Origin: Lachnospiraceae bacterium
GTDB lineage: Bacteria > Bacillota > Clostridia > Lachnospirales > Lachnospiraceae
Length of the DNA stretch: 64,000 bases
Direction of reading: 5' to 3'
Assembly: GCA_024403515.1 (NCBI GenBank)
Contig: JAKSRS010000001.1
Coordinates: 124,001-188,000, forward strand
Shown here: piece after piece, positions 51,838 through 57,542 of the stretch
Layout of the letters: each line of letters begins with the position of its first letter
Position numbering within the stretch: the stretch's first letter is position 1
Program-made: the position numbers and the translations under genes
The notes under the pieces: generated by a model
Databases searched by the model: none
What the model saw: only the letters and a program-made list of their open reading frames with translations
Told to the model about the DNA's origin: nothing

Positions 51838-51864
51838 TTAGCACTCGAAGTCGTTGAGTGCTAA
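51838..51864. promoter_or_regulatory. CIRCE element (HrcA operator)
   Basis: TTAGCACTC (51838-51846), 9 bp, GAGTGCTAA (51856-51864): an exact match to the HrcA operator, between the hrcA promoter and start codon. Confidence 0.97.
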
Positions 51865-51904: not shown

Positions 51905-51952
51905 CAAATTAGACACTACGAAATTATTAAGTATTTCTAAACAAAGCCATGC

Positions 51953-52020
51953 ACACCCAATATCCACCAATGTACCGCGCGAGTTTACTCGTGTAAGGTA
52001 CATTGAGGGATGTTGGGTGT
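51953..52020. repeat. 68-bp imperfect inverted repeat next to the palindromic array
   Basis: Arms of 24 bp (51953-51976 and 51997-52020) match at 20 positions; the perfect outer part is ACACCCAA/TTGGGTGT and the perfect inner part CAATGTACC/GGTACATTG. The centre contains a further CGCGAG-TTTA-CTCGTG hairpin. The inverted word AAAGCCATGC just outside its left end (51944-51953) recurs in opposite orientation at the ends of the 44-bp repeats. Confidence 0.7.
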
Positions 52021-52026
52021 ATACGG

Positions 52027-52282
52027 CGCCAGCCGTGACTGAGCGAGCTTTGCTCGCGAAGGCGCATGGCTTTACTCGCGATGTGTGGCATATTCCCGCC
52101 AGCCGTGACTGAGCGAGCTTTGCTCGCGAAGGCGCATGGCTTTACTCGCGATGTGTGGCATATTCCCGCCAGCCGTGACTGAGCGAGCTTTGCTCGCGAA
52201 GGCGCATGGCTTGTTGGTTGCGAATGTTTTGTGCACCTCGCCAGCCGTGACTGAGCGAGCTTTGCTCGCGAAGGCGCATGGC
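52027..52282. repeat. Array of four identical 44-bp palindromic GC-rich repeats
   Basis: Four copies of a 44-bp unit lie at 52027-52070, 52097-52140, 52167-52210 and 52239-52282 (periods 70, 70 and 72 bp). Each unit starts CGCCAGCC, ends GGCGCATGGC, and contains the hairpin GCGAGC-TTT-GCTCGC. The first two spacers are an identical 26-bp sequence; the third is an unrelated 28-bp sequence. The unit is much richer in GC than its surroundings. Frames across the array encode low-complexity repeats of the APSRAKLAQSRLA type that I do not regard as protein. Confidence 0.9.
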
Positions 52283-52295
52283 GTAGACAAATCAC

Positions 52296-52327
52296 AACAA
52301 ACAGGGTACAGCTTTCGCTGTACCCTG
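52296..52327 (-). terminator. Intrinsic terminator of the 1731-residue surface protein gene
   Basis: Perfect 11-bp stem CAGGGTACAGC/GCTGTACCCTG with a GAAA loop on the minus strand, followed by TTTGTTGTG, 19 bp after the stop codon. Confidence 0.7.
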
Positions 52328-52346
52328 CAATCACTAATTGATATTC

Positions 52347-55300: not shown

Positions 55301-57542
55301 TCGGCATAGGTGCTATGGCAACGACTGTAGACTTAAGCCCTGTTGCCCCGTACACACCCACACTTGCAAGTTGACCTACGCCGACACCTGCATATAAATC
55401 TATTTCAAAAGATAATTCAAGTTTCATATTGCTGTTAAACTTCTTGTTTGTAAAGTCATATATCACTTGACTATCGATACCAATTCCGCCTTCAACCCCA
55501 AGTTGAACTGTAATGGGAACAACCCAAACCATAGTGTTGTACTCAAACTCAGTTCCTACCTTGACAGCAATCAGCAATTTAATGCTTGCACTTTGAACCC
55601 CATTATTTTCTATTAGTTCACCGTACCCACCTATTGTAAAAGAAATATCTGAAGAAAAAGGAACAGCACCTTTAGTTTTTTTGAAGTAATTTTGATATTC
55701 GTTCAGAGCATGATCACTATTTTTAATGTTTGTGAACACATCTTCCAGAAATTTTTCAGCATCCTTCCCGGCTTTTTTAAACTCATCAATCCCATTATCT
55801 GCAAAATTTACAAGTACCAGGTGCCTATCTCCAATTTGTTCAATCGATACAGGCAACGTTACCGGCAACTCAAAAGACATTTTTTGTGCGCCAATCAGTG
55901 GAGTAGACGAAGATGTATCATACGGGAATTTAGCATCTAATTTTATCTCAGTGATTCCTACCGTTTTATCGGGTTTGGTCCTCAACATTAGCTGCTGATT
56001 CTTGGTCGTTCCATTAATATCAGTTACAGACACGCTATATTTTACATCTTTGTTTTTAGGGATGGGAACTCTATTAAACTTTCCTGTCTCGCTGATTCTT
56101 GTCTCATTGGCACCAATATGTAGCGTAAAATAGTCGACCTTACTAATGTCATCAACCTCACACTCAATGGTCATCGTATTTTTTGAATCATATATACAAT
56201 ATGCTTCAAACATGACATTCTTTTTATCACCAGGTTGTTTGAAAACAGCTCTATCGACTCTATCTATAGCAGTATCAACATTTTCAACCTCTTCATTTTT
56301 TTCGACATAATAAACCCCTGTGAAATTTACAAGGCAAGACGGTCTATATTCCTTTTCCAATACGCAATCGAAGTATCCCTCTAAAGCATAGTACGTCACA
56401 TTGTTTTCATTGTCATACATATTGTACGGAATACATATTTGAACATTTGTATTAAAATTACGCAAAATCAGTGTTTCCAAAGATTCACAACTCAACACAT
56501 CGGGTTGACAATTAAAGGTCATATCACTAAGATTTAATGTTTTAAGGCAAGTGTCCTCTAGAAACAATCTATCCATCTTTTTAACATTGGTCACATTCAA
56601 ACGACTAAGGTCAAGACTTTCCAAGCTGGTGCAATACATAAACATTTGTGTCATATCAATTACACTTGATGTATCGATGTTACTTAAATTGAGCTCAGTC
56701 AGGTTTTTACACCCGTAAAACATGGAACTCATGTCAGCAACTTTTGAAGTATTGAGTTTACTTAAATCGAGACTTGTCAACGAACTGCAACTTCCAAACA
56801 TAGCACACATATCAGTGACATTTGAAGTATCGAGTTTACTTAAATCGAGACTTGTCAACGAACTGCAACCTGAAAACATAGCACACATATTAGTGACATT
56901 TGAGGTATCGAGTTTACTTAAATCGAGACTTGTCAGCGAACTGCAACCATAAAACATAGATTCCATAACAGTGGCTTTTGAAGTATTGAATTTTCCACCC
57001 AAAACAATGCTCTTTAAGTTTTCACATTTGTGAAACATAGAATCCATTCTGGTTACATTTGACGAATTCAGTTTTCTCAAATCAAGACTGGTTAGACTGC
57101 TACAATCTCCAAACAAGTAATTAATGTCAGTGACTTTTGATGAATCAAAGTTATCTCCAAATATTATTTCCTTTACTCTGCTTTTATCGCTAGTGCATAG
57201 GGAAAGATAAAGATCACTTTTAGACTTATAGTCTAAATAAAGATATATGTCAGCTGACTGACTCACAAGTGAATCAAAATACCTTCCCGCACTCGAATCA
57301 CCTAATCCTTCACCGCAAACATACTCCAGATATGCATTATCACTTAATTTGAACATATAATAATCTATATCATCTTCATCCATATAATACTTGTAGAATT
57401 TACTTGTTGCCTTCTCAGTATCATATGTCTTTCCCTTATACTGAAATGTCCGTGCATAAGACGACAAACCGCAAACATAAAAAAAGAACAATAAGATAAA
57501 TAATGTTCCAAAAAGTTGATTAATAAACCTATTATTTTTCAT
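52347..57542 (-). CDS. Giant secreted leucine-rich-repeat (BspA-like) surface protein
   Basis: A 1731-residue secreted protein with signal peptide (about 1-31, LFILLFFFYVCGLSSYA). BspA-type repeats of the DUF285 kind follow (about 130-370; units of about 26 residues such as CSSLTSLDLSKLDTSNVTNM). Next come a beta-rich region (about 440-800) and propeller-like repeats (about 820-1230; VDKGVLYVAWVE). After these are a CARDB-like segment (about 1240-1410), a cysteine/histidine module (about 1425-1475; CTSEGSKKYECECGEYRYETIPALGH) and C-terminal LRR_5 repeats (about 1555-1695). There is no LPXTG motif or dockerin. Such proteins bind host or plant polymers or other cells; the ligand is unknown. Confidence 0.85.
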   Translation of the reverse strand: MKNNRFINQLFGTLFILLFFFYVCGLSSYARTFQYKGKTYDTEKATSKFYKYYMDEDDIDYYMFKLSDNAYLEYVCGEGLGDSSAGRYFDSLVSQSADIYLYLDYKSKSDLYLSLCTSDKSRVKEIIFGDNFDSSKVTDINYLFGDCSSLTSLDLRKLNSSNVTRMDSMFHKCENLKSIVLGGKFNTSKATVMESMFYGCSSLTSLDLSKLDTSNVTNMCAMFSGCSSLTSLDLSKLDTSNVTDMCAMFGSCSSLTSLDLSKLNTSKVADMSSMFYGCKNLTELNLSNIDTSSVIDMTQMFMYCTSLESLDLSRLNVTNVKKMDRLFLEDTCLKTLNLSDMTFNCQPDVLSCESLETLILRNFNTNVQICIPYNMYDNENNVTYYALEGYFDCVLEKEYRPSCLVNFTGVYYVEKNEEVENVDTAIDRVDRAVFKQPGDKKNVMFEAYCIYDSKNTMTIECEVDDISKVDYFTLHIGANETRISETGKFNRVPIPKNKDVKYSVSVTDINGTTKNQQLMLRTKPDKTVGITEIKLDAKFPYDTSSSTPLIGAQKMSFELPVTLPVSIEQIGDRHLVLVNFADNGIDEFKKAGKDAEKFLEDVFTNIKNSDHALNEYQNYFKKTKGAVPFSSDISFTIGGYGELIENNGVQSASIKLLIAVKVGTEFEYNTMVWVVPITVQLGVEGGIGIDSQVIYDFTNKKFNSNMKLELSFEIDLYAGVGVGQLASVGVYGATGLKSTVVAIAPMPKDRGIEEIKLTGEAGIRAYLAKMKWEKPLLSGETIIYSRTSSIADKAVSQFDVQDELDSFIASPSSYASIVPSSKSAINKVSTSKDAVVIGAYPDAMPQIVEASGVTMLVYTDETDGRTDLNKTQIKYRLYDSSGFKAPKAVDFDGKTAECRPVVYTDGTDIYVAYLVAEKEFGLNVDSSVYASAFQIKVAKYNKKADKFETLGILGNKGIYSFSPTLLVDKGVLYVAWVENNDNHPFGATKNNFIYMSKYDKGFSTPETIIRNVPGVSCLKMGLIGEKATLAYVYDADGNMSTEDKKFAYREIGSTSPFSYEPYSFSCLQYTKVNGRNSLAYNRDGAVFYTDTVGVAPHSISGVKIPSGTDFVIDTERNSIYYLKKSGDKRDIYRTKYVNGKWTIGPITSNESGDYVNAFSLKDNSLAYLSTRVNRISDDETSEIRYLGDVNKQSAGLAFVGNTFKWCTSLFKSENISKASNYMTRMDRGYSDEDELLDLYVKNDGNTMLDNVHIKIGSMPGGSDICDVTRSVNIAPMEAQKVEVSADFSSLVPGKVYITIVPDGLSEGDSAESYELDLGKPDFVSETTFISKDQKKFAKIVVRNEGTKGAQAKIELLSDKGTVLFSKDDVVRANEYKEYEVELNYSDIYESAADNECLIFTNVISDIDEFYTENNNSFAEVWKTDDEKHVCNYEKESVIKTPTCTSEGSKKYECECGEYRYETIPALGHSLNFHAAVDATLKKDGVRSYYDCTKCKNLYADKEGKALLAKKDLVLTVKSVSKTVGKNVYSVIESPLGKILKVTYKKSKDSKLKTISIGKLKINNKTYKVDEIASDAFKGHKSLTSVTVESSVTTIGKNAFSGCVKLKTVKGASGVTTIADSAFSGCTSLSNVPAFAKVNKIGEKSFYNCSSMSKFTIGSNVASIGKSAFQNCKKLKAVKIVSTKLTDKNVGANSFKSISSTATITVPKNKYSAYVKLLKKRGITGKLQKIKK
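56720..56990 (-). repeat. Tandem near-identical 78-bp repeats within the LRR coding region
   Basis: Consecutive units encoding CSSLTSLDLSKLDTSNVT..M are nearly identical at DNA level over about 3 units, so the region has probably expanded or recombined recently. Confidence 0.75.

Follow-up and report, generated by a model that had tools for sequence, protein, structure and literature searches.

Three kinds of described repeat or RNA bear on the locus studied here. Passages of the 2010 paper on Clostridiales-1 (RF01699) present it as a probable RNA of Clostridiales and the human gut that is neither cis-regulatory nor a riboswitch (PMC2864571), and the papers listed by searches of the open-licence literature include no functional study of it. 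REP sequences are outlined, in the relevant part of their source, as palindromes of 20-40 nt with a GTAG or CGTC tag (PMC3733652). The BOX repeat of Streptococcus pneumoniae is a composite interspersed repeat in which the middle module, boxB, is part of a folded RNA and varies in its number of tandem copies (PMC3049150).

The window analysed here is a whole stretch of 64,000 nt from Lachnospiraceae bacterium GCA_024403515.1 (contig JAKSRS010000001.1, 124,001-188,000), and all coordinates are window-based. The object described is one copy of a family-wide cloverleaf repeat with exchangeable stems, larger than the short tandem array first reported at this site.

The 44-mer array and the element around it

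A preliminary description of the window reported four identical hairpin-forming 44-bp palindromes, with the first two spacers identical and the last different. The units and the spacer pattern are as it stated: all four 44-mers are 100% identical over 44 nt, their starts lie 70, 70 and 72 nt apart, and spacers 1 and 2 are identical and spacer 3 different. Tandem Repeats Finder reports the array as row 52027-52282, and a 26-nt core of the 44-mer has four matches in the window versus none in 100 shuffles. The label 'palindrome' is only roughly right. The inner stem, GCGAGC-TTT-GCTCGC, is perfect, but a 44-mer folded alone, being a fragment of a larger element, does only slightly better than its shuffles (z -1.6 and -2.0).

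An inverted repeat just upstream of the array (51946-51976 with 51997-52027, 81% complementary) had been missed, as had the 5' partner strand GCCATGC at 51946-51952. The first 44-mer is the 3' half of an element at 51944-52074, and positions 51942-52072 fold as a four-way-junction cloverleaf (-82.1 kcal/mol, z -11.4). On this folding model, what the four 44-mers repeat is a single arm of a larger repeat with the shape of a cloverleaf. The features of the locus are:

51838-51864, no strand assigned: inverted repeat at the hrcA promoter, which from its consensus we take to be of CIRCE type; context, outside the element
51944-52074, + strand: complete cloverleaf element, match to model R1 at 105.3 bits
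51946-51952, + strand: P1 5' strand, GCCATGC, pairing with 52064-52070
51953-52020, + strand: P2, long variable hairpin with a TTTA tip
52022-52037, + strand: P3, short hairpin TACGGC-GCCA-GCCGTG
52039-52061, + strand: P4, hairpin with a GA/GA internal loop, the core of the 'palindrome'
52064-52070, + strand: P1 3' strand, GCATGGC
52027-52282, + strand: 44-mer array, four copies (52027-52070, 52097-52140, 52167-52210, 52239-52282)
52071-52140, + strand: extra unit 1, consisting of a shortened P2 tip and 3' arm, the P3 3' strand, P4 and the P1 3' strand
52141-52210, + strand: extra unit 2, identical to extra unit 1
52211-52282, + strand: extra unit 3, the same P4 module with a different spacer
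52301-52328, - strand: terminator-like hairpin of a BspA-type gene; context

Searches with the 44-mer or its core, exact or with three mismatches, matched the window array alone. Within the genome of origin, four matches were found at up to 3 mismatches, all in the array; the exact 44-mer was absent from the 96 other genomes of a 97-genome search of relatives, and a 25-base core pattern occurred nowhere else in the GTDB contigs (genome_contigs). Two scans of IMG/VR viral sequences and searches of plasmids gave no match. Frames across the array have no significant Pfam or NCBIfam match, and family search thus assigns them no coding function. Counting the unit genome-wide and in relatives had been proposed as a check, with absence elsewhere named as the outcome that would refute the preliminary reading. 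The answer depends on what is counted: the exact unit is indeed found nowhere else, which by that standard would have closed the case, but a family appears once divergence and structure are allowed for.

A dispersed family in Lachnospiraceae

A blastn search of a phage collection gave a single weak match, MT836841 (E 0.3), which has the same layout with compensating changes in the stem: where the window has GCGAGC-TTT-GCTCGC, MT836841 has GCAGGC-TTT-GCCTGC. This entry (L023) is labelled Bacteriophage sp. and is probably not a phage; read by eye, it carries genes for a branched-chain aminotransferase, a lactate dehydrogenase and other bacterial-looking proteins, and its element sits upstream of the aminotransferase gene. 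A search pattern built from both sequences gave 44 matches in genome_contigs, of which 9, from 8 genomes and with the whole layout, were judged by eye to be members and 35 to be chance matches. The nine member loci carry Lachnospiraceae-type or Clostridium names, and the named hosts of pattern matches are Lachnospiraceae, Blautia, Mordavella, Merdimonas and the like, with Merdimonas faecis and Mordavella massiliensis identified to species. The order of the layout is GCCATGC, a long variable hairpin, TATACGGCG..AGCC, GTGAC-GAGC..GCGA-G and GCATGGC.

Model R1 (E up to 0.1) found 113 matches in the genome of origin and the 8 pattern-match genomes, which were picked for having such matches: 9 in the genome of origin and 2 to 37 in each of the others. 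With model R2 (E up to 1e-5), 67 of 100 genomes drawn evenly from the family Lachnospiraceae had matches. In a sample of the phylum, with fewer candidates scored per genome than within the family, 4 of 249 genomes matched, all four of them Lachnospiraceae, and none of the 245 from other families did. The genome of origin holds seven elements by R2. The covariance model reveals a dispersed, structured, intergenic repeat family that is Lachnospiraceae-wide; 18 of 74 elements overlap an open reading frame of 90 aa or more, as called by a crude ORF caller.

Four of the seven elements in the genome of origin (contigs C48, C83, C84 and C88) are no farther than about 460 bases from the end of a contig. 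The elements may thus be points at which the draft assembly is broken or collapsed, and the copy number of the window array may be affected.

Covariation and strand bias

The minimum-energy fold is a four-way junction in all nine seed elements, and five other elements fold at z -5.7 to -10.4. The seeds were aligned by MAFFT alone and the structure was taken as the majority of the members' own folds. In this alignment 26 of the 48 pairs change on both sides, and 500 shuffles did not reach any of the measures. Among 83 distinct elements, double changes are seen at 45 of 48 pairs, and the covariation score is 0.734 versus 0.169 when shuffled; sliding gives at most 0.10 on this alignment and about 0.16 or less on either alignment. 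The 83-element alignment was made to fit the structure, which biases these figures in its favour, and the element sequences are related, so the pair counts are not independent. P1, P3 and P4 covary as well in the larger alignment. The P2 stems are nearly perfect, with a median of 27 pairs, and the hairpin tips are conserved and of CUUG type.

Within stems, G.U far outnumbers A.C. At single mismatches in stems folded without G.U, we counted 64 G.U against 13 A.C; at model pairs there were 172 and 53, and 122 and 36 when P3, which has a frequent U.G pair, was left out. A strand-neutral process on double-stranded DNA would give equal numbers of the two, so that selection on the + strand, as RNA or as a single strand, is the simplest reading of these counts, taken from sequences that are not independent. 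Action at the RNA level is probable, on the strength of this G.U bias and of kinship to a predicted RNA. Near the window element itself, no + strand promoter stands out.

A less likely alternative is that the element acts as single-stranded DNA folded into a cruciform, or into a hairpin that serves as a recombination substrate, and that quasipalindrome template switching, not selection on RNA, left the covariation as a by-product. Integron attC sites, which are hairpin recombination substrates, offer a comparison. The length and near-perfection of the P2 stems, and their whole replacement at some orthologous sites, are what such a process might leave behind, and template switching is reported to be able to create and to repair perfect stems (PMC8794818). 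Neither the excess of G.U over A.C, which is unlike a strand-neutral process on double-stranded DNA, nor the covariation of P1, P3 and P4 is easily accommodated by it, and the conserved CUUG-type tips and the prediction of the Clostridiales-1 relative as an RNA also speak against it. Single-stranded DNA of one strand is a possible acting form; a transcribed + strand is the reading that we prefer.

Replacement of P2 at orthologous sites

Pairs of elements with similar flanks in different genomes (28 with a score of 45 or more) allow P2 to be compared at what appears to be the same site. We used the 13 with a left-flank score of at least 84, whose left flanks are about 80-95% identical, and dropped the 15 weaker ones. 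Their P2 identities range from 0.58 to 0.97, against a median of 0.59 and a 95th percentile of 0.70 for unrelated pairs. In L319/L384 the 3' part is conserved (identity 0.96) and P2 is at 0.58, and L312/L315 are similar (0.91 and 0.59), whereas L325/L341 have a P2 identity of 0.97 and 0.88 in the 3' part. The contrast among these three pairs indicates that P2 can be either kept or wholly replaced, both arms together, at similar flank divergence within one species pair (G599/G600). An intermediate case, L333/L374, keeps the base of P2 and differs in the distal part of both arms. In the other pairs used, the 3' part has also diverged (identity 0.49 to 0.92), which makes them less informative.

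Across G599 and G600, two P2 types and two 3' modules occur in all four combinations (counts 1, 3, 3 and 2), a signature of recombination between copies. One published way in which new perfect stems arise is template switching (PMC8794818). Some of the replaced-P2 pairs would also be explained by independent insertion at the same site, or by an ancestral tandem pair of which different members were lost. Because kept, partly replaced and wholly replaced orthologues coexist in one species pair, these stems provide a natural test case for how long RNA stems stay paired during sequence replacement, an open question in RNA evolution.

A bolder proposal, which we hold to be quite unlikely, is that P2 is a self-complementary hairpin cassette of about 27 bp. 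It would be gained or exchanged in one piece while the cloverleaf scaffold around it stays constant, would be expressed as RNA, and would be generated by a mechanism of its own in place of compensatory drift. If true, each chromosomal site would carry a changeable double-stranded 'barcode'.

Genomic setting and the heat-shock genes

Neighbouring genes were scored for the 74 of 85 aligned elements that had enough flank, with a crude ORF caller. In 45 of the 74 the gene on the left points towards the element, and in 21 of these 45 the element starts no more than 15 nt after the stop codon; right neighbours that face the element have their stop within 15 nt in only 3 of 36 (p 1.8e-4). When one of each ortholog pair was dropped, the counts within 15 nt of a stop were 17 of 37 on the left and 2 of 30 on the right. 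Many loci have a loose leader upstream of P1, a T-tract followed by CRCGTAAGCTAY, and in several the leader overlaps the stop codon of the preceding gene.

In the window the neighbourhood is hrcA-grpE-dnaK-dnaJ, as assigned by Pfam. The element lies between the terminator-like hairpin (52301-52328) and the hrcA promoter (51904-51876) and runs antisense to hrcA as well as to the BspA-type gene, which leaves no place for a 3'-UTR role at this locus. The BspA/DUF285-type gene encodes 1731 aa and contains 78-bp coding tandem repeats of its own (56717-56993).

The position 'beside the heat-shock operon' had been part of the preliminary description, and a regulatory element of that operon would lie well here, about 80 nt beyond the CIRCE-type repeat. 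Some elements in other genera also adjoin such a repeat, among them L312, at the same site as L269, and L315, at the same site as L289, where a ClpB-like start, recognised by eye, is also adjacent; most elements do not. However, hrcA was found in 16 other genomes of the genus and no element accompanies it in any of them, with the CIRCE-type repeat present in the printed upstream regions, and other copies of the element sit by unrelated genes. A heat-shock function is therefore very improbable, and the neighbourhood of the window element is coincidental and has no bearing on its nature. The window element is probably a passenger without a heat-shock role.

Mobility of the elements

No mobiliser of the elements was found. 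Target-site duplication was likewise not detected (mean shared word 3.62 versus 3.69 shuffled), and a wider test gave 6.16 versus 5.78 shuffled, driven by three loci. In 20 of 81 elements pairing extends beyond P1 above shuffles, which may amount to extended terminal inverted repeats. L376 (1550-1680) and L377 (1480-1610) are identical elements with unrelated outer flanks. They share short direct repeats on either side (11 and 17 nt, TATAAATTATGGTTTAC type), after which the flanks diverge; these repeats could be remnants of site-specific insertion.

The preliminary description compared the units to REP or BIME elements and suggested looking for a RAYT. Its idea of a dispersed structured repeat holds, given seven elements in the genome of origin and 67 of 100 genomes in the family; the REP/BIME identity does not. 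The elements are intergenic, palindromic, repeated and preferentially downstream of genes, as REPs are described to be (PMC3733652), but they are about 130 nt long with a four-way junction rather than 20-40 nt, and neither GTAG nor CGTC stands out as a tag at a constant position. The Y1/RAYT transposase (PF01797) occurs in 16 of 26 genomes, 7 of the 14 that are rich in elements and 9 of the 12 that have none, and thus does not track the elements; the genome of origin has none despite its seven elements. Mobilisation as a REP/BIME-type element by a RAYT is highly improbable. An ordinary local tandem repeat (VNTR) without further meaning, suggested by the uniqueness of the exact 44-mer to this locus, is refuted for practical purposes by the six further elements that the covariance model finds in the same genome and by the spread of the family.

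Origin of the array and preferred explanation

The claim that the array grew by duplication of a unit of about 70 bp is borne out by alignment, in which the 70-bp unit, its P2 arm shortened, covers the element from the tip of P2 through P1. Of 2000 shuffles, 0.1% matched the P2 tip and 3' arm as well as the spacer of the unit does. L268, L272, L276, L280 and L286 show repetition of the 3' module too. Together, the alignment and these further cases make the array look like the product of slippage or unequal recombination of the 3' module.

Taken as a whole, we consider it likely that the array arose when the 3' module of a single copy of a dispersed cloverleaf repeat was multiplied in tandem, and that the family of this repeat is sister to Clostridiales-1. 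The predicted full element comprises a closing helix P1, the long hairpin P2, the short P3 and P4 with its tandem-GA loop, and the part multiplied is the P3 3' strand, P4 and the P1 3' strand. The + strand would be transcribed, often as a 3' UTR directly after a stop codon, and the cellular function, as we infer it from sequence patterns, may be an effect of the compact fold on where the transcript ends or on how stable it is. Copies would spread as non-autonomous repeats, and hairpin modules may multiply and swap through slippage, ectopic gene conversion or template switching during replication. About two thirds of the sampled genera of Lachnospiraceae, major bacteria of the gut and rumen, carry this structured, RNA-like repeat, which Rfam misses at its cut-offs.

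Comparison with known systems

The likeness to REP/BIME elements lies in the palindromic, extragenic nature of the element and its frequent position downstream of genes; size, junction structure and the lack of a linked transposase set it apart. Like MITEs, the elements are non-coding, and some copies may have extended terminal inverted repeats; unlike MITEs, they have neither target-site duplications nor a parent element that we could find. The window array resembles BOX in consisting of tandem copies of an internal module. Here, unlike in BOX, it is the P4/P1 3' module that is repeated, with a hypervariable P2, and the likeness concerns only the composite, tandem organisation.

The closest relative is Clostridiales-1. 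In the window, Rfam yields no relevant hit up to E 10, RF01699 included. Among 20 element loci, RF01699 matches three on the element strand over the full model, at 41.0 (L330, the best), 37.8 and 31.7 bits, below its cut-off of 48 bits, and the reverse search of RF01699 members with R2 is weak (best 28.4 bits). The two share a four-way junction, P1, a long first hairpin whose cap is GCUUGC, another hairpin whose internal loop is GAG/CGA, and a third hairpin; when minimum-energy folds and alignments of L445, L446 and L448 are set beside the elements, the closing helix, the long CUUG-capped first hairpin and the GA-loop hairpin are common to both. The element is shorter (126 versus 166 positions) and its junction sequences differ (GCCATGC/GCATGGC closing, GGGCGA-AGCCC P3). 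Clostridiales-1 co-occurs in multiple copies in some element-bearing genomes, where strongly scoring RF01699 members show the common architecture. One genome, G055, has at least 77 matches to it, many nearly equal in score and some in tandem, which suggests a recent expansion of Clostridiales-1 there. From the shared architecture and the full-length, same-strand cross-matches below the cut-off, together with the weak reverse search, we read the cloverleaf repeat as a sister family of Clostridiales-1.
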